DNA of 64,000 nucleotides from Cokeromyces recurvatus. Lineage: Eukaryota > Mucoromycota > Mucoromycetes > Mucorales > Mucoraceae. The notes under the pieces were generated by a model that ran no database searches, was not told where the DNA came from, and saw only the letters and a program-made list of their open reading frames with translations. The translations under genes and the position numbers were made by a program. Positions 6,121 through 59,096 of this stretch are shown here, piece after piece (the stretch's first letter is position 1; every line of letters starts with the position of its first letter). The DNA lies in assembly GCF_025118155.1 (NCBI RefSeq), contig NW_026251412.1, positions 124,001 to 188,000 of the forward strand, given 5' to 3'.

Positions 6121-7215
6121 TCGAAAGAATATTGTAGATATAATGACTCAGATAAAAATGCATTCATTTATTATCTATATGAGGAAGGTCTAAGCTTACG
6201 CAAGGCAGCTGCGAAGCTTAGAGTACCAGCATGAACAGCACAAGGTTGGAAAAACAAATTTGAAGATGGAGATGATGTTTTTGAAAGAAAAGAAGGAAGC
6301 GGTGGACCAAAATGCAGATCAGCAATTTTAAAAGAAGATTATCAAAAGCATTTGATCGAATTGATTGATGATAATCCCTCTCTAGTCTTAGATCAAATGA
6401 TGGAAAGTCTTGCTTCTCAATTTAAAGATCTTGAATTTCCTAAAATGACACTGTATAATTTTGTCACGAAAAAGTGCAAAATAAGATAAAGCATGCCTAG
6501 TTTCATTCACTCGAAAGAAATAGTTTTGGAGAAGCTTCAAGAGAGAAAAGAATGGGTCCAGCGCTGGCGGCAAACAGATATGGATTATATACTACATCTT
6601 TATAGATTAACCTGGGTTCAATATAAATATGAACCGCTCAATAGCTTAGAGTTAAGAAGGGTGAGCGTGCTATTTTAACTGTTCGGAAAACCAAAGCAAG
6701 CAATTTCACCATTTTGGAGACTATTGCTTCGTATGGGGCTTTAAATATTAGCGTAAGACGTCCAAAAAAAGAATTGAGTCGTCTAGAAAGAGAAAAGTTG
6801 GAGAAATTACTGCACCAGGTGCCAGTAGAGGTAAAAAGGGGGTACTGTCACTGGTTATTACTTTAATTTTGTGGCTGCAACTTTGGATGTACTTGATTGT
6901 TAAAAACAATTGAAAAGGCACCATATTGTTAAGGAAAATGCCCTCATTTATACTCATCTCGATATCCAGAAATATATTGAGCAAAGAGGATATGAGTGCA
7001 TTTATCTTCCTCCATATTCTCCCGAGCTTAATCCTAATGAACAATTTTGGTCAGTATGCAAGAGTAAACTAAAAAGAGAGAAGCTTTTGAAAGAAGAAAC
7101 ACTGGCATCTAGAATTGCTGAAGCCTGTTATAACATCTACTTGAATGATTTGGAAGGTTTTTGCCAATACTCTATATCAAAATTCCAAGATTGTGTAGAT
7201 GGGCTACCATTGTAA
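6121..7215 (+). pseudogene. Tc1/mariner-superfamily (mucoralean) DDE transposase, inactivated
   Basis: One continuous frame from 6121 reads a helix-turn-helix N-terminus (EEGLSLRKAAAKLRVPA, then a GGPK-type linker) and is broken by a TGA at 6232 and a TAA at 6487. It continues through KEWVQRWRQTDMDY (catalytic-domain entry; after this the first-Asp block is scrambled). After several frame changes it recovers at 6910 with YLPPYSPELNPNEQFWSV and a C-terminal helix ending at 7215. The DNA that should encode the second Asp block (MDNAPIH in relatives) reads KENALIY, so the catalytic Asp is gone. The element is non-functional. No matching inverted termini were found. Confidence 0.85.
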
Positions 7216-8493: not shown

Positions 8494-10691
8494 TATAAAA
8501 TAAATGAAGGATTACAATAATGATAAGAGAAAAAAAAGAAGAAGAAGAAGAGGGTTTGCTTATGAGAATATTTAAATACTTTTACTTATTTTATTTTTTG
8601 TTTTGATCATGCGTATTACGTCAAATAGTTCCAAGTGATACAGGTTTTCTTATTGCAATTCTTCTTTAAACGAATATAGCTTTACACTACATCTATTTGT
8701 TATTATTATTTAAAACTTCAAAGGAGAAAACAACATTTTATAGCCATTTAGGTAACAATATAGTAGTAGCATCTTCTATTAATAAAAAAAAATAAGATAA
8801 AAGGCTTTTTTTTTTCTTTTTATTATACAGTGCTTTGCATTTAAAAAAAAACAAAAATTAGCAAGTATATATATTTTGTATATCTATCTGAATGTTTGTG
8901 TATACTATATAGTACAGCTTTTTTGTTGAGTAGTAAAATGATTTTATTAAGATGAAGAACGAGTCCAGCCTTTATAGTTCTTCATTAGAGTCAAACAATT
9001 CATTCATGAAGTTTTTTCGTACCGTTCTGCAGTCATTGTAATTCTTTAATCGATTATTTAGGTTCTGTAGCGTCTATTTTAACTTTCCTAATTATAGCGT
9101 CAGTGGGTTGTTTATTAACGATAATGATGTTTATAACAACGATATAAGTTATAACTACTATATTCTATGGCCAATTCTGAACTCGTCATCAAAATCAATT
9201 CAGAAGACTAAGTTTTCATTGAGTGAAAAGAGATTAGAAGCTGTATCCCAGGATCTATAATGACAATCGGCATTTCTATAATACTAATGGTATTCATTTC
9301 AAATATAGATAGCGAGATCGAAATAGCATTCTTGGAAACAACAGGCCCCTTACTTTAACAAAATGATCCAAAGGAAACTCAAAATTAAATCAAGGCTGGA
9401 TACAGCCTTTTCGCCATGCTGCATGTCATCGTGCGAAAGTTCCACTATGGCGATATTGAAAAAAAAATGGCTCTTTTTTTGTTCAGGCGATACGTTTGTA
9501 TCTTCTCTTTTTCTTTAAAAACATATCCGTTAACGTTTTATTTTATGGTGTTTTTTCAGCAACAGAGATTAGGATTTGGAGAGTATTTATGCCGGCAAGC
9601 AAAATTTATGTGACCAATTGTATTGGTTCAGTCAAAGTGCCAACAGAATCAAAAACGTCAGAGGAAAAATCGAGGAAGTTGATTGATCTATTTTGATTCT
9701 TCAGAGTAAGTTATACTTGATCCATATTTTGACATTTAATTTATCATTGATATCTTTTGTTAGCGACTAATCAAAGAATCATATCAATCCATCGATCAGC
9801 TACAAGGATCACGCATTGATAATTCTGAAGAAAAAGGCTAGGAAGTTGGCGGGTACGTAAAAGTAACAAGTTTGTGTGACAACTTCAAAATAAACACCCT
9901 ATTCAAATTGCCACAGATTTACATCAAAAAATCAAGTCAAATGCAAATCAATAGCTTACCAATTAGGCTAGATAACAGTAGTAAAATAATTAGGGCATAC
10001 CTATTGCTGGTTTTTCATTAAAATAACATAGTCTACTATATATGCTTAATACTTGGAATATTTTATAGTTATTTAATTAAAATATACATGTTAACTTGTA
10101 GACCAAGTAGGGATAAATGGACTTATTATATAACAAATATTTGTTATTTCGATACTGAAGTTAAAAAAAGATTTTCTATTATAATAAATACAATCATCTT
10201 CATTTATTATCTATCATCAAAACGAGTATTCTCAAATCAATTAAGAGTGGCGGAAGCTATACAGAAAGTAAGATAAATATTGCAGTAGCTGAAGCTAAAT
10301 ACAAAAGATATTGTTATGCAAAGGCGAGAAGGAAACTAAATTGTCACTACAAAATTGCAGATATTAAACAATTAGAAAAAATAGTTAACACGTTATAATG
10401 TTACAGGATTTTGAGTTTTTTTGTTTTTTTTTTAAGTCAAAAAAAAACATCAGATGTATGTAATAGACCATATTAATCCAATAACCACCGATCAGATTAA
10501 CTGAAGAGTCAGTGTCGAGTCTGGAAAGACTCCAAGTTCAGAGGATTAAGCAAACGCGGGAGTTCCTATCTTCCAAAGTTCCTTGATAGGCTTGCCGGAT
10601 TTGTCAGGGAGCAATGTATGCTTTCTCAAGTCATTGGTCATTGTAGGCTAAGAAAAAAAAATGCAAATGGAATCTTGCGTAATTTATATTA
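8494..10691. other. Intergenic, with scattered eroded coding-like blocks
   Basis: No intact gene is seen. Three patches look like decayed coding DNA. Around 9410-9850 frames switch, with a short natural-looking stretch near 9590-9690 (VPTESKTSEEKSRKL). Around 10240-10400 there is a Lys/Arg-rich tail. Around 10500-10650 the composition is GC-richer with two competing open frames. None could be assigned to a family; all are probably transposon debris next to the element at 10692. Confidence 0.4.
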
Positions 10692-10798
10692 CAGTCTGGG
10701 AAACTAGGTTGGGCCAATAAAAAAATAATTGGGTCATTCAAAAATTAAATTGGGACACGGATGTAGAATTGGGACATCCAAATGAAAATGAGACAGAG
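10692..10798 (+). repeat. Left terminal inverted repeat of the Fanzor element
   Basis: It matches the reverse complement of 12938-13025 across the whole length except for an extra segment of about 19 bases. That segment arose by internal duplication around the AATTGGGACA motif, which is present twice here and once on the right. Confidence 0.9.
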
Positions 10799-10984
10799 AT
10801 GTGATTAAAGAGTAATTTAATTAAAGTAAAGGCTATTGCGCACGTAGTGACTATGAATACATTGTTTTGCCCTGGCCAGTTCTGAGTGTTATTTTGTATG
10901 AAAAAAAAAACCCCTTTTTGCAAGAAAAGAGGAAAATGTATAAAAGTAAAGAGAAACAGAATCAGTAAAAGAAATATTTGAACT

Positions 10985-11390
10985 ACTACTACTACTACTA
11001 TGATTGATTTAACCAATTCACCAGTTTAACACTAGAAATGATGAGTTCAGGAGGCGGTTTGTTGTGGAGAATATAGTCCAATTCGTGAAATATTCGGTAT
11101 ACTACCGGCTAATGAACGGACCAAATGCAGGAAACTTTGGGATGGCGGTTTTTTTTTTTTTTTTTTTTTTTTTTTTGTAAGTGAGCCTGTTCAAGACGAA
11201 GGAAAGCGGGTCAGGGATGGTGTGTGTCATTTGAAAGTGGCTATTCATGTCGAAGCAGTCAATAGCATGGTCCCAAGTAAGCCTTGAGTCTGAGTGGAAG
11301 ACACGATGTTGTGGCTTGCCACCGAGGAGCCAACCAAGTTACCATCGAACATATTATTATTTTGGATCAGGAATAATTGTAAGTCGTGCG
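10985..11390 (-). pseudogene. LINE reverse-transcriptase C-terminal fragment inside the Fanzor element
   Basis: Reading the minus strand gives the block LGWLLGGKP, then a WDHAIDCF segment, HTIPDPLSFVLNRL and, after an expanded T-run (about 11150-11175), FHELDYILHN, PPPEL and finally VKLVNWLNQS before a stop. The same order of blocks occurs at 62972-63454, so this is the conserved C-terminal tail of a non-LTR retrotransposon protein. Several stops and frame changes are present. A (TAG)n array directly follows the stop, like the simple-repeat tail of a LINE 3' end. This is a 5'-truncated insertion. Confidence 0.75.
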
Positions 11391-11589
11391 TCATGCTAAC
11401 ATTCAAAATAAAGACTGAGTCTGACTTTAACCGAGAAAAATGCCCTAAAAGTATAATTCAGACAGATCTAACAGCTTTGTCACTTTAGAACGTTTTCCAT
11501 AAATGGTAGAATTTGTTGAAATTTGATACTTTATTAGTATGTGTAAATTCAAATTAAACAAATGATCTGTCAGAAATATTTGCAACAAC

Positions 11590-12793
11590 ATGCTCCAGCG
11601 CATTTTACCAGTCGACTGTAAAGAAGCTGATGTGGTTCTATTGCAAAAAATAACAAATAGTACAGTTGAATACAGATGCATATCTAGCGAAGACGTAGAA
11701 ATTTTCCAATTGGGAGATGTTATGAAGAATGAAAACTTGGCTGATGTTTCTCTTTGCGGGCTGGATCCCAACCGACATCAGGTTTTTGCTGCTGCTTATG
11801 GGGAGGGTGATGAATCCCATCAAATCAGACGATGCTCTACTAAAGAGTATTTTACCTTAACAGGGTCTATAAGACACGCAAAGAGAGAAACAAAAAAAAA
11901 TGACTCGAGAAAATATGGAGGATATACTTCTCAACATTCCTACAACCAAGACAGCTGTTCTTTCAAACTATTTGCAATACGTAATTTATATTTTCTTACA
12001 TCTAAACAGAATACTAGCATTTAACAACTTCTCAACTGCTGAAAGTCTCTTTCACCTATACCAGGGAGTTCAAAGGGCCCGACAAGAAATGGCTAATGTC
12101 CTCATTAATGGTGGAAAAAAATACAATAAGGCCAAAAGAAAGAAGACAAAGAAGAAGAGGAAGAAGACAAAGAAGAAGAGGAAGAAGACAAAGAAGAGGA
12201 AGAAAAGAAAGAAAAGAAAGAAGAGGAGGCACAAAGAAGCGAAAAAAAAGATAAAGAAGTTCCCCAGCAGACAAAGTGAGTATACTAACATCAAAGCTGA
12301 GAGACAAACACTATATTCATCAACTATTATTTTAGGAACACCAAGAAGCTTTGGAAGCCCCAACCTTTCAAATACGACAAGAGTAAATTGCCTATTATAG
12401 CTTTCGAAAATGGCATGTTCGGAAAAGACGGTGTACATTTGAAGGGTCTCAGGGTGGGAGTGACAGGAGTTCTTTACAAACAACTCAAAATAAGACAGAA
12501 ATCAGGAGAACTTTTACTTGCTTCTGTAGATGAGTTCAAGACTTCAAAGGTACAACAAAATTTACCAAAACTGGTCAAAGAATAATTTATTAATACTGTA
12601 AATATAGACCTGTCATGTATGTCTTCAAACATGCTTGACTGATGCTTACATTGGGTTGCACAATGTTCAAACTTGCCAAAGTTGCGGAATAATGTGGCAA
12701 CGCAACGTTAATGCGTCGAAAAATATATTCAAAATCTCAAGACAAGTGATTGGTGGTCATGGGCGTCCACGGGAGTTCACGAGAGAACAATAG
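11590..12793 (+). pseudogene. Fanzor (TnpB-like RNA-guided nuclease family), inactivated
   Basis: Fanzors are eukaryotic relatives of TnpB: RuvC nucleases guided by an omega RNA. The order of blocks fits a Fanzor C-terminal half. GLDPNRHQVFAAAYG at about 11755-11800 is the RuvC-I block with its Asp. It is followed by RRCSTKEYFTLTGS and, after a frame change, by IPTTKTA. Then come YQGVQRARQEMANVLINGGK, an expanded Lys/Arg tract, and, after another frame change, LPIIAFENGMFGKDG and ASVDEFKTSKVQ. Finally there is a zinc-ribbon half CQSCGIMWQRNVNASKNI and GGHGRPREFTRE before a TAG. The Asp expected in the RuvC-III motif (RDVNA) is Asn, and the first Cys pair of the ribbon is corrupted. The N-terminal half is not recognisable. 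The copy cannot make an active enzyme. Confidence 0.85.
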
Positions 12794-12937
12794 GTCTTGT
12801 TTTTTTTTAATATCGCCGTCTCGTACACGGTTTCTCTTGTTAAAGAGATTTAGATATTTACAGGTATGCTGCATCTATTTTTTTTTTTTTTTTCGTCCAG
12901 AAAAATCTAACATTTCGTCTTAATTTAACTTATTCTC

Positions 12938-13025
12938 CTCTGCCCCATTTTCGTATTTCTGTCCCAATTTAATTTTTGAATGATCCAATTATTTTTTTAT
13001 TGGCCCAACCTAGTTTCCCAGACTG
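12938..13025 (-). repeat. Right terminal inverted repeat of the Fanzor element
   Basis: It is the inverted counterpart of the left end and finishes in CCCAGACTG followed by TA. The DNA between the Fanzor stop (12793) and this repeat is where the omega RNA of related elements lies. It contains a T-run and no open frame. Whether a guide RNA was encoded here cannot be judged from one copy. Confidence 0.9.
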
Positions 13026-13532
13026 TAAAAGAGAATCATGATAAGTATGACTTATCACATTTTTGTCCAATCAAAGCCCAAAGTACAGCAAAGCGAGTGC
13101 GAATAAATACATAGTAACTCTAATTTAGCTCAAAACAACAATCATTTGCTAATAAACGGCCAATCATTCTCCAGTTAGCGCCATTTATTTTTTTATTTTT
13201 TTTCAAAACGGACAAAATTTACTAGCCGCACTATACAAAATAAATATGCTTGCTTATCCAGGTTCCTTAGATTACGTAATATACTTAAAGTATAAACATT
13301 GTAAATATTTGTGATAATTTCTCAAAAGAAACATTGATAAAGCTGAATAGATCAGCTCTAATTTATATTGAAAGAAAAAAAAATTTTTTTTTATTCATTT
13401 GAAAGGTTATATAGTTGTTTAAGAAATATACCATTCGTAATAGAGATAGTTAATAATATTATATATGTTAACCCTTTGCATTTGGAAATATTTGTCTATA
13501 TCATCAATTTTATCATTTGATGGTGGAATATA
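13026..13532. other. Non-coding, downstream of the Gag-like gene
   Basis: AT-rich sequence with no coding frame. It separates the transposon insertion from the stop codon of the Gag-like gene and probably holds that gene's 3' untranslated region. Confidence 0.5.
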
Positions 13533-14681
13533 TTAAGCATCTCTTGTTGAAGAAAACGCTTTAAGGGTTCTTTTATGTTTAAATTTCTTTGCTTTTAATG
13601 CTGATCGCGAATCATCAGCAGCAGATGCTTTACGTTTCAGTGATTTTGATATTAAATAACTAGCGTCTATGAATTTTTGCTCATCTAACTGACGAGTAAA
13701 AGTGTAAACCGTTTGTAGATCTGATCGCCTAGCTTCAGGTATTTGTTTAAGGCTAATTAATAGCTCGTTACGTAAAATAGTAGGCAATGCATTCTGAAAT
13801 AATATAACTAACAAATCAGGATCCATTGGATGAGAACGTTGTATTAAATTATTGAATCTTTCTATAAATTGATCAATTGTTTCTGACGTATGTTTTGTAA
13901 TGTTTAATAATAAGTTTGTAGCATGCTCATGTTCATTTTTCTTAGGTACATCAAAGCGTTTCTTAAAAGCTCTCATAAAATCCCGCCATAAAGGTTCTCC
14001 ATCAAAAGGAGAAAATGCAATGTATTCGTTATACCACATTTTTTGTTCTCCACTTAAACACATTGGCATCAGACGAAACCAGTTTTTATCAAGATCTAGG
14101 CTATATGTTCTCAATACTTTCTCAAAGTTTTGTAAGCAGATATCCACAGTTGGAAATATAGGTTTTGAAGAATCACGAACATAACCTTTCCATTGGAAAA
14201 AGGGAAGATCAACAGGAGTAATAAAAGTAGGAGCAGCCAGGGGATCATTAGAAGGCATAGGTATTCGATTATACAAGTCCATAAGACGATTCAGAAGCGT
14301 TGACTGTTGCAAGGCTTGAAGCATCTCCCTTGAGCACTCATCACGTCTATCAGAAATACGTTGTTGTTCGGCAAATGATAAATTTGTTAAAGCAAGGAAC
14401 CAGCTATGTGCAGAATATGTTTCCCGTGTTTTCATTTCAGCAATCCATTCTGCTCTCGCTGCCTTTCTAATGGTTAAGATAATTTTGTCATATGAACTTT
14501 GATTACAGCTGACGCTATTTGGTATATATTTGCTTTCAACATCAGTTAAGCTATTAGAGTCACCAATAATAGCATTAACTAAAGTAGATTGATTATGTTT
14601 GTCATCAATAGACGTAAAGTTAGCTTTTGTTGAATTCGGTATAGCTAATGACGAAGACTTTGTAACAGTATTGCCAGTCAT
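13533..14681 (-). CDS. Retrotransposon Gag-like protein, intact single ORF
   Basis: One uninterrupted 382-residue frame. The middle (about residues 160-315) has the retrotransposon Gag pattern: WKGYVRDSSKPIFPTVD, LSGEQKMWYNEY, LWRDFMRAFKKRFDVP, then ETIDQFIERFNNLIQR and LFQNALPTILRNELL. The C-terminus is very basic (SLKRKASAADD, KAKKFKHKRTLK) and lacks a CCHC zinc knuckle. No protease, reverse transcriptase, integrase or LTR was found next to it, although neighbouring elements are riddled with stops. The likely explanations are a recently inserted truncated Ty3-like copy or a host-retained gag gene. It lies about 190 bp downstream of the TFIIIC gene, in the same direction. Confidence 0.8.
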   Translation of the reverse strand: MTGNTVTKSSSLAIPNSTKANFTSIDDKHNQSTLVNAIIGDSNSLTDVESKYIPNSVSCNQSSYDKIILTIRKAARAEWIAEMKTRETYSAHSWFLALTNLSFAEQQRISDRRDECSREMLQALQQSTLLNRLMDLYNRIPMPSNDPLAAPTFITPVDLPFFQWKGYVRDSSKPIFPTVDICLQNFEKVLRTYSLDLDKNWFRLMPMCLSGEQKMWYNEYIAFSPFDGEPLWRDFMRAFKKRFDVPKKNEHEHATNLLLNITKHTSETIDQFIERFNNLIQRSHPMDPDLLVILFQNALPTILRNELLISLKQIPEARRSDLQTVYTFTRQLDEQKFIDASYLISKSLKRKASAADDSRSALKAKKFKHKRTLKAFSSTRDA

Positions 14682-58201: not shown

Positions 58202-58799
58202 TGCAAAATGGATCCTTATTTTATATCTTGTGGAGAACGGGTTACTTCGCGACAGGAACAGAATGAAGATATCTTGAAAGAAGAATATTTCCCATAAAAT
58301 TATTAAAGTTAGTTTATTTGAGCTATCTAGTCTTTGCCCTGATTAAAACAAAATAATGAAATCTCCTTTGTTCATACTTGTAAATGATATAGGGAAGATA
58401 CTTTTAATATAGATTCCTTTGTATTATTTTTATTCCTCAATGTACTACTTGTATGAATTTCATTATATTGTATAGTGTATAGATAGGATAGTATATGATT
58501 ATATTTATAAATTAGTGTATTAGATAATAACGTGGATATATAACTAATAGGTACTATTTATAATTCATATATCTTTATCATTAATAACTGTTTACACCAT
58601 GTTTGGCTTATCATTATCTCGTAACGTCAATATTTATTATTATATTATTTTTCTCGTTATAAGAATGTCTTATAAACAGAAAACAAATAACATTGTATGC
58701 ATAAAGTGTACTACTAATAACTATAATATCATTCGGTCCTTCATGACTCTGATCTGTATATTATAAGATATTATGTAATACATCATCATATACACAACA
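58202..58799 (-). mobile_element. LTR-like repeat R1, inverted copy
   Basis: On the minus strand it begins TGTTGTGTATATGATGATG and ends GGATCCATTTTGCA, the same borders as 46814-47524. It is shorter through internal deletions. It abuts the interrupted transposase frame that starts immediately to its right. Confidence 0.75.
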
Positions 58800-59096
58800 A
58801 TAGTAATAGATAACTGCAGAATTCACCATTCTGCATTTGTTGTTGATGTTATCAATAAGAGAGGGTATAAACCTTTGGTCATGCCTTCTTACTCTCCTTT
58901 TTTAAACCCGATCGAAGAATTCTGGTCAAAAATAAAGAGCAACATCAAGAGAAACCCACTTGATAAAGCAGATACTTTGACATTTTGCCTTCTTGTAGCT
59001 TGCGGATCAGTTACTGTTCAGGACTGCCAAGGTTGGGTTAGACATGCTGAGACCTTCTGGGATAGGTGCATTAATAAAGAACTAGGCTTAAGGTAA
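58800..59096 (+). pseudogene. Tc1/mariner transposase C-terminal half, truncated at an LTR
   Basis: From the LTR border the frame is open: IVIDNCRIHHSAFVVDV (second catalytic Asp block), MPSYSPFLNPIEEFWSKIKS (third block) and a C-terminal helix ending at 59096. The Asp and Glu motifs are both intact here. The N-terminal half is missing to the left of the repeat, so the LTR insertion or a deletion at it cut the gene. Confidence 0.85.

Follow-up and report, generated by a model that had tools for sequence, protein, structure and literature searches.

A probable omega-RNA scaffold beside the decayed Fanzor1 gene of a Tc1/mariner-type transposon in Cokeromyces recurvatus

The window analysed here is a 64-kb stretch of DNA (C19:124001-188000) from the 28.05-Mb, 64-contig genome of Cokeromyces recurvatus (Mucorales), and its positions 10692-13025 form a TA-flanked TIR element carrying a decayed Fanzor1 gene. 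Fanzor proteins are eukaryotic relatives of CRISPR cutting enzymes, and their guide RNAs have so far been found by sequencing expressed RNA. Beside the gene end, 12810-12872 holds two hairpins plus UUACAGGUA, which covary between Fanzor families. We consider it likely that the element is a decayed, non-autonomous Tc1/mariner-type Fanzor1 transposon, that the RNA core is its omega-RNA, and that cutting of empty sites led to retention of the element. The features are as follows.

10688-10691, +: left flank ATTA; TA at 10690-10691 is the target-site duplication, and ATTA is the predicted target-adjacent motif, on the basis of left ends genome-wide
10692-10776, +: left TIR, with subterminal GGGACA repeats
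11624-11627, +: junction of a missing 533 bp that exist in other copies
11758-11772, +: GLDPN, read in translation, presumed RuvC-I motif of the Fanzor frame
12276-12335, +: probable intron GTGAGT..TTTTAG
12325-12552, +: Fanzor RuvC stretch ..GMFGKD..SVDEFKTSKV, from tblastn; its first matched residues may be intronic
12550-12607, +: probable intron GTACAA..ATATAG
12611-12784, +: Fanzor zinc-ribbon/TNB stretch CHVC..CQSCGIMWQRNVNASKN, from tblastn, with PF07282 at 12608-12727
12810-12872, +: structured RNA core with covariation (model R1, 70.3 bits, E 4.9e-17), read as putative omega-RNA scaffold
12815-12831, +: hairpin 1 of the RNA core
12833-12848, +: hairpin 2 of the RNA core
12855-12863, +: UAUUUACAG, with donor-like GUAUG from 12864
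12941-13025, +: right TIR, with AG at 13012-13013, 12 nt short of the end
13026-13027, +: TA target-site duplication; the guide is predicted to start at 13028

The element reads from CAGTC at 10692 to GACTG ending at 13025 with TA on either side, and thus has the TA duplication and CAG..CTG TIRs of Tc1/mariner elements. The inverted ends with TA duplications reported by the initial annotation are therefore real, and its description of them as near-identical applies to the outer 66 nt (98% identity), whereas the full 88-nt arms (10689-10776 and 12941-13028) are 89% complementary. A left-TIR identity of 0.80 was probably an alignment fault and was not used. The TIR pattern CAGTCNNNNAAACTAGGTTGRGCCAATA has 96 genome sites at up to two mismatches and none for the reversed-pattern control; 24 pairs bracket 112-3575 bp and 48 sites are single. 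TA and the true end are kept in 91 of 99 TIR ends. Miniature elements of 112-325 bp with the same TIRs lie at C23:337071-337213, C23:982962-983073 and C30:24899-25223. At C64:715416-718657, an identical 14-nt flank stands at both ends in TIR orientation; this inverted layout may stem from an anomaly of assembly or duplication. Immediately right of the window element, 13533-14681 on the minus strand is a 382-residue frame that is gag-like by impression.

The Fanzor gene was recognised through its relatives. Window frames read alone had no Fanzor match in Pfam, and PF07282 at 12608-12727 gave E 0.005 and 21.9 bits, under the 26.3-bit cut-off. In tblastn with open-frame pieces of same-genome relatives, L064, L056, L046 and L067 matched 12325-12552 and 12611-12784, with a best E of 2.5e-23 computed at a database size set to 56 Mb; L121 gave no row. 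This upholds the earlier claim of a gene related to Fanzor and TnpB in a mariner-like TIR element, for which frames 11590-12793 had been named as the place to search. The RuvC and zinc-ribbon (TNB) relation to known Fanzor1 members is thus present by way of same-genome relatives. We take GLDPN to be the RuvC-I motif from its likeness to GLDPG of L121 and from what is generally known of such motifs. Judging by frame continuity, the two frame breaks are probably GT..AG introns, which would account for part of the breakage reported earlier. The third RuvC aspartate has become asparagine (WQRN, against WQRD in L014); all three RuvC acidic residues are therefore present in L014 and not in the window copy, which is by sequence descent a decayed Fanzor1 member. 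A full-length open protein is absent from it, given the missing 533 bp and the frame breaks. On the evidence of its letters, the window copy is dead, because 533 bp are missing and WQRD reads WQRN, and an active nuclease is not expected.

Genome-wide, PF07282 has 105 matches, 31 of them within 4 kb of a TIR-pattern site. The subfamily b relative L121 keeps a 330-residue frame with GLDPG that passes PF07282 at 36.5 bits, and its best homologue, in Umbelopsis isabellina, is 72% identical. In PDB searches, L121 matched GtFz1 weakly (E 0.0025) and L064 matched TnpB-like chains (at best with E 0.0029, behind one unrelated design); pieces of L041 and L013 gave nothing usable, SpuFz1 reaching no better than E 0.18. 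Relative to L041, nine copies of subfamily b have 117, 129 and 99 substitutions at the three codon positions, shared changes being counted more than once, and this even spread makes the copies look neutral now. A second type of Fanzor protein, with FGNAKFGSS..YVDEYLTSQTC whole or in pieces, occurs in L045, L049, L057, L059, L060 and L069 and has no convincing RNA core.

A search of the element against its own genome gave 108 matches, pieces and TIR halves counted, including about 20 long relatives with 85-94% identity (copies differ by 6-15%). The relatives have the same ends and the same interior, so the TIRs are neither confined to this locus nor joined elsewhere to unrelated interiors. At such divergence, the recent movement proposed by the initial annotation is unsupported. 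Among 16 aligned copies or parts, seven lack the same 533 bp (the window copy, C56, C4, C47, C30, C7:217261 and C12), five span the point and retain the segment (C17, C1, C26:128355, C7:73898 and C9), C45 and C26:33063 have part of it, and two further copies are uninformative. Loss common to seven of 16 copies indicates that the shortened form multiplied. The junction is not a clean fit to an intron or to an inserted element, and deletion is our working reading. C30 and C12 have a further common loss of about 445 bp that removed the gene end and RNA core and kept the right TIR; hence neither gene end nor core seems needed in cis for movement. In L018 (C7:217261) and L019 (C7:73898), a 192-bp loss is found in both and the 533-bp loss in one only, which suggests recombination or conversion between copies.

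Inside the element (C19:134692-137025), no DDE transposase was seen among its frames or the listed PF13358 matches, in agreement with the initial annotation, and the element is therefore non-autonomous. Movement in trans by an enzyme encoded elsewhere, also proposed there, is supported, with partners found only as relatives. An intact autonomous element with the exact TIR of the window element was not found among the genome loci read. Next to a broken transposase-like gene (L075) at C1:705175 is a TIR end that departs from the pattern at two positions. Over 122 bp, this end and the right end of subfamily b are 72% identical (E 1e-14); the L075 pieces had no transposase match in Pfam, and their kinship is based on similarity to frames beside DDE_3 matches. 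L076 and L077 carry DDE_3 domains (E 1.8e-23 in L076) and more distant ends, CAGCTGAAGAAAATAGGTTGGGCC, the left end of L077 being degenerate. Fanzor-type ends read CAGTC..AAACTAGG, against CAGCTGAAGAAAATAGG for transposase-type ends, and the right-end RNA owes an AG and a small inverted repeat to these differences. The best reading of the Fanzor elements is that they belong to a Tc1-like group as its non-autonomous members. Elsewhere in the window, DDE_3 transposase gene fragments lie at 6883-7101 (C19:130883) and 58668-58979 (C19:182668).

The initial annotation had pointed to 12794-12937 as the place for a guide-RNA scaffold, and structured RNA was found there. Model R1, whose training set includes the window copy, has 12810-12872 as its sole strong match in the 64-kb window, the next scoring 12.7 bits. 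A run over 62 loci yielded 30 matches with E no higher than 0.001, and the three transposase loci had none. The core lies on the gene strand, 71-172 nt past the TNB match, in ten Fanzor-anchored loci; a conserved structured RNA thus accompanies the 3' end of the Fanzor gene. The pattern CGCCN11GGTTN{10,40}CAGGTA has 28 genome sites against none reversed. Twenty-two of them are beside a Fanzor end on the same strand; 21 of these lie 3-176 nt downstream, and the other falls within a copy of subfamily a. Under a strict rule, the count is 18 of 28 (binomial tail 7e-50). The 28 sites comprise seven model sequences, six close relatives and 15 others, and nine of these 15 are beside Fanzor. Six sites have no detected Fanzor nearby (C3:17406, C5:534319, C16:289007, C26:146284, C62:105115 and C63:797262); four of them have the same 61-nt length, and such sites of equal length are perhaps Fanzor-less ghost elements.

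Among the 30 Fanzor-anchored loci L045-L074, the core was present at E up to 0.001 in 11 (L051 and L073 overlap), weak in 12 and absent in seven. A second TIR family, whose end (CTG followed by TA) was judged by eye, has the same core in L030, L046, L066 and L067 and weakly in L063 and L064. On viral contigs, 48 pattern stretches were treated as chance, since their best model score was 27.0 bits, whereas 29 of 30 Fanzor-side matches reached at least 36.9 bits, L029 with 24.2 bits being the exception. The parts covered of the open-licence PMC literature on Fanzor, including Mucor and Rhizopus, and on covariation hold no description of this RNA core.

The motif T..TTACAG/GTAWG, first found in subfamilies a and b, occurs at up to three mismatches in 22 of 26 labelled right ends and in none of 14 labelled left ends. 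The motif is preceded in families a, c, d and e by GCCRY-N7-RYGGU and by a second hairpin whose sequence varies; in subfamily b, the motif and hairpin 2 are kept and hairpin 1 is not. In nine sequences (8 distinct, aligned by MAFFT), 89.4% of cells pair, and the covariation score is 0.526, against 0.241 when shuffled and at most 0.256 when slid. A larger alignment of 24 distinct rows, fitted to model R1 and thus favouring it, has 39 cells in which both partners changed, compared with 10.7 after shuffling. Folding of 12794-13023 from the window copy alone gave no excess stability (z 0.04), so the RNA signal comes only from comparison between families. RNAalifold predicted hairpin 1 only, with hairpin 2 absent, and Rfam had no match in 12500-13100 at E up to 1. 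From the covariation, 12810-12872 is probably an omega-RNA scaffold.

According to our model, a DDE transposase encoded elsewhere would have recognised CAGTC-type TIRs and inserted the element at TA, and ancestral copies would have made Fanzor protein together with an omega-RNA from the right end. In this RNA, hairpin 1, hairpin 2, UUACAG, the TIR end and TA would be followed by the neighbouring host DNA, which would serve as guide. The right end, TA and A together read CUGUAA, the complement of UUACAG, and pairing of the two would close a helix beside the guide; this agrees with a proposal, in the part of PMC10711439 used here, by which TIR and duplication become part of the scaffold. The target of the complex would be an empty site, in which (A)TTA precedes the right-flank sequence; once this site was recognised and cut, repair from the filled copy would keep the element; this retention step is taken from published TnpB/Fanzor models.

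The target motif in this model is predicted from flank asymmetry. The flanks of 99 TIR ends were sided by Fanzor orientation (29 left, 33 right, 37 unknown), and eight ends were dropped, seven without intact TA and one degraded left end whose TCTA would have counted against the motif. Over all families, 24 of 25 left ends have T at -3, against 18 of 31 right ends (p 0.0014), and ATTA is found in 17 of 25 left and seven of 31 right ends (p 0.0010); at TA sites of the window, T precedes TA in 32% and AT in 10%. Within subfamily a, to which the window copy belongs, the left/right differences are not significant (p 0.16 and 0.06). Among 17 two-ended elements, ATTA is left-only in ten and right-only in two (p 0.039). 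Nearest-neighbour siding of unlabelled ends is weak (35 of 47 right in leave-one-out when confident), and the ends sided in this way, with ATTA in six of six left and two of five right, are supportive only. The left excess of TTA suggests a target-adjacent motif, predicted as (A)TTA. The excess could instead come from target choice by the transposase or from orientation bias, with no nuclease motif. Right flanks are also T-rich at -3 compared with window TA sites, hence the transposase may prefer TTA/TAA, and ATTA also stands to the left of the Fanzor-reduced C30 copy, in which the 533 bp and the RNA core are both missing. Against this, left and right TIRs are nearly alike and hard to tell apart, yet the bias is stronger on the left; we regard such a transposase or orientation effect as the less probable source, though one with a substantial chance.

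The conserved 3' structure could also serve the Fanzor transcript as some other cis element, such as a 3'-end, stability or splicing signal. The distance of the core past the TNB match in the ten loci is that of a 3' UTR, its end CAG/GUAAG resembles a splice donor, and its distance of about 150-240 nt to the right end exceeds that of published Fanzor1 omega-RNAs, which counts against the omega-RNA reading itself. However, covarying stems are common to many diverged Fanzor families, and published omega-RNAs lie at the same place with two or three stem-loops, according to parts of PMC11423790 and PMC10711439. A separate cis function is thus unlikely in our judgement. That the TIR pair and the Fanzor similarity arose by chance or are unrelated would agree with the blank Pfam result for the window frames alone, but about 20 long relatives alike in ends and interior, 96 TIR sites against no control site and the tblastn E of 2.5e-23 speak so strongly against it that we count it as already refuted and next to impossible.

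Within the omega-RNA reading, splicing might make the RNA by joining scaffold to guide, a speculative idea that we think improbable. The two-hairpin core ends at the donor-like CAG/GUAAG, and the TIR contains an AG 12 nt before its end (CCUAG/UUUC..GACUG), present in all eight right ends examined, which have the same TIR and are not independent. Removal of 149-196 nt, most of the transposon right end, would join UUACAG to UUUC..GACUGUA and so place a third hairpin immediately ahead of the guide. The five UACAG/CUGUA pairs can all form in five of six sequences of this TIR family and in two of three of the second TIR family; in family e and L064, the full third hairpin is not formed after predicted splicing. 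Transposase-type ends (CCTATTTTCTTCAGCTG) are without this AG; as a caveat, the AG belongs to the TIR common to the whole family. If true, a eukaryotic RNA-guided nuclease would have its guide RNA assembled by the spliceosome, which would be a new route to such RNAs.

The following comparisons hold for the parts of each cited paper that were covered. PUl-4-type Fanzor1 elements in Tc/mariner (Bao and Jurka 2013, PMC3627910) are alike in carrying Fanzor1 only, in the TA duplication and in having TIRs in common with transposase-encoding mariner elements; the table in that paper includes Fanzor1 families of Mucor, Rhizopus and Phycomyces, and no RNA is described in the parts covered. SpuFz1 elements of Spizellomyces punctatus (Saito et al. 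2023, PMC10432273) are alike in their many copies, conserved ends, Fanzor-less ghosts, right-end non-coding RNA and conserved bases outside the left end (CA; TAM CATA, against the predicted (A)TTA in Cokeromyces). Unlike the Cokeromyces core, which lies about 150-240 nt inside the right end, the 75-nt SpuFz1 scaffold includes the inverted repeat. PpFz1 of Parasitella parasitica, also in Mucorales (Xu et al. 2024, PMC11423790), likewise has two stem-loops before the guide; its omega-RNA is 75 nt with guide segment C50-C58, and the Cokeromyces core measures 49 nt from GCC to CAG, a likeness by description only. The TAM of PpFz1 is ATN, compared with the predicted (A)TTA. The reRNA model of SfAV Fanzor1 (PMC10711439) differs in concerning an insect-virus element, and the UUACAG/CUGUAA helix of Cokeromyces is sequence complementarity only.

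Copies with a common large gene deletion mean that Fanzor-dead forms have multiplied, and that movement is separable from Fanzor function in cis. What is new is a scaffold common to many Fanzor families of one fungus, proposed from covariation alone. Mucorales Fanzors thereby gain an RNA model that can be used in searches, together with predictions of guide position and target motif.
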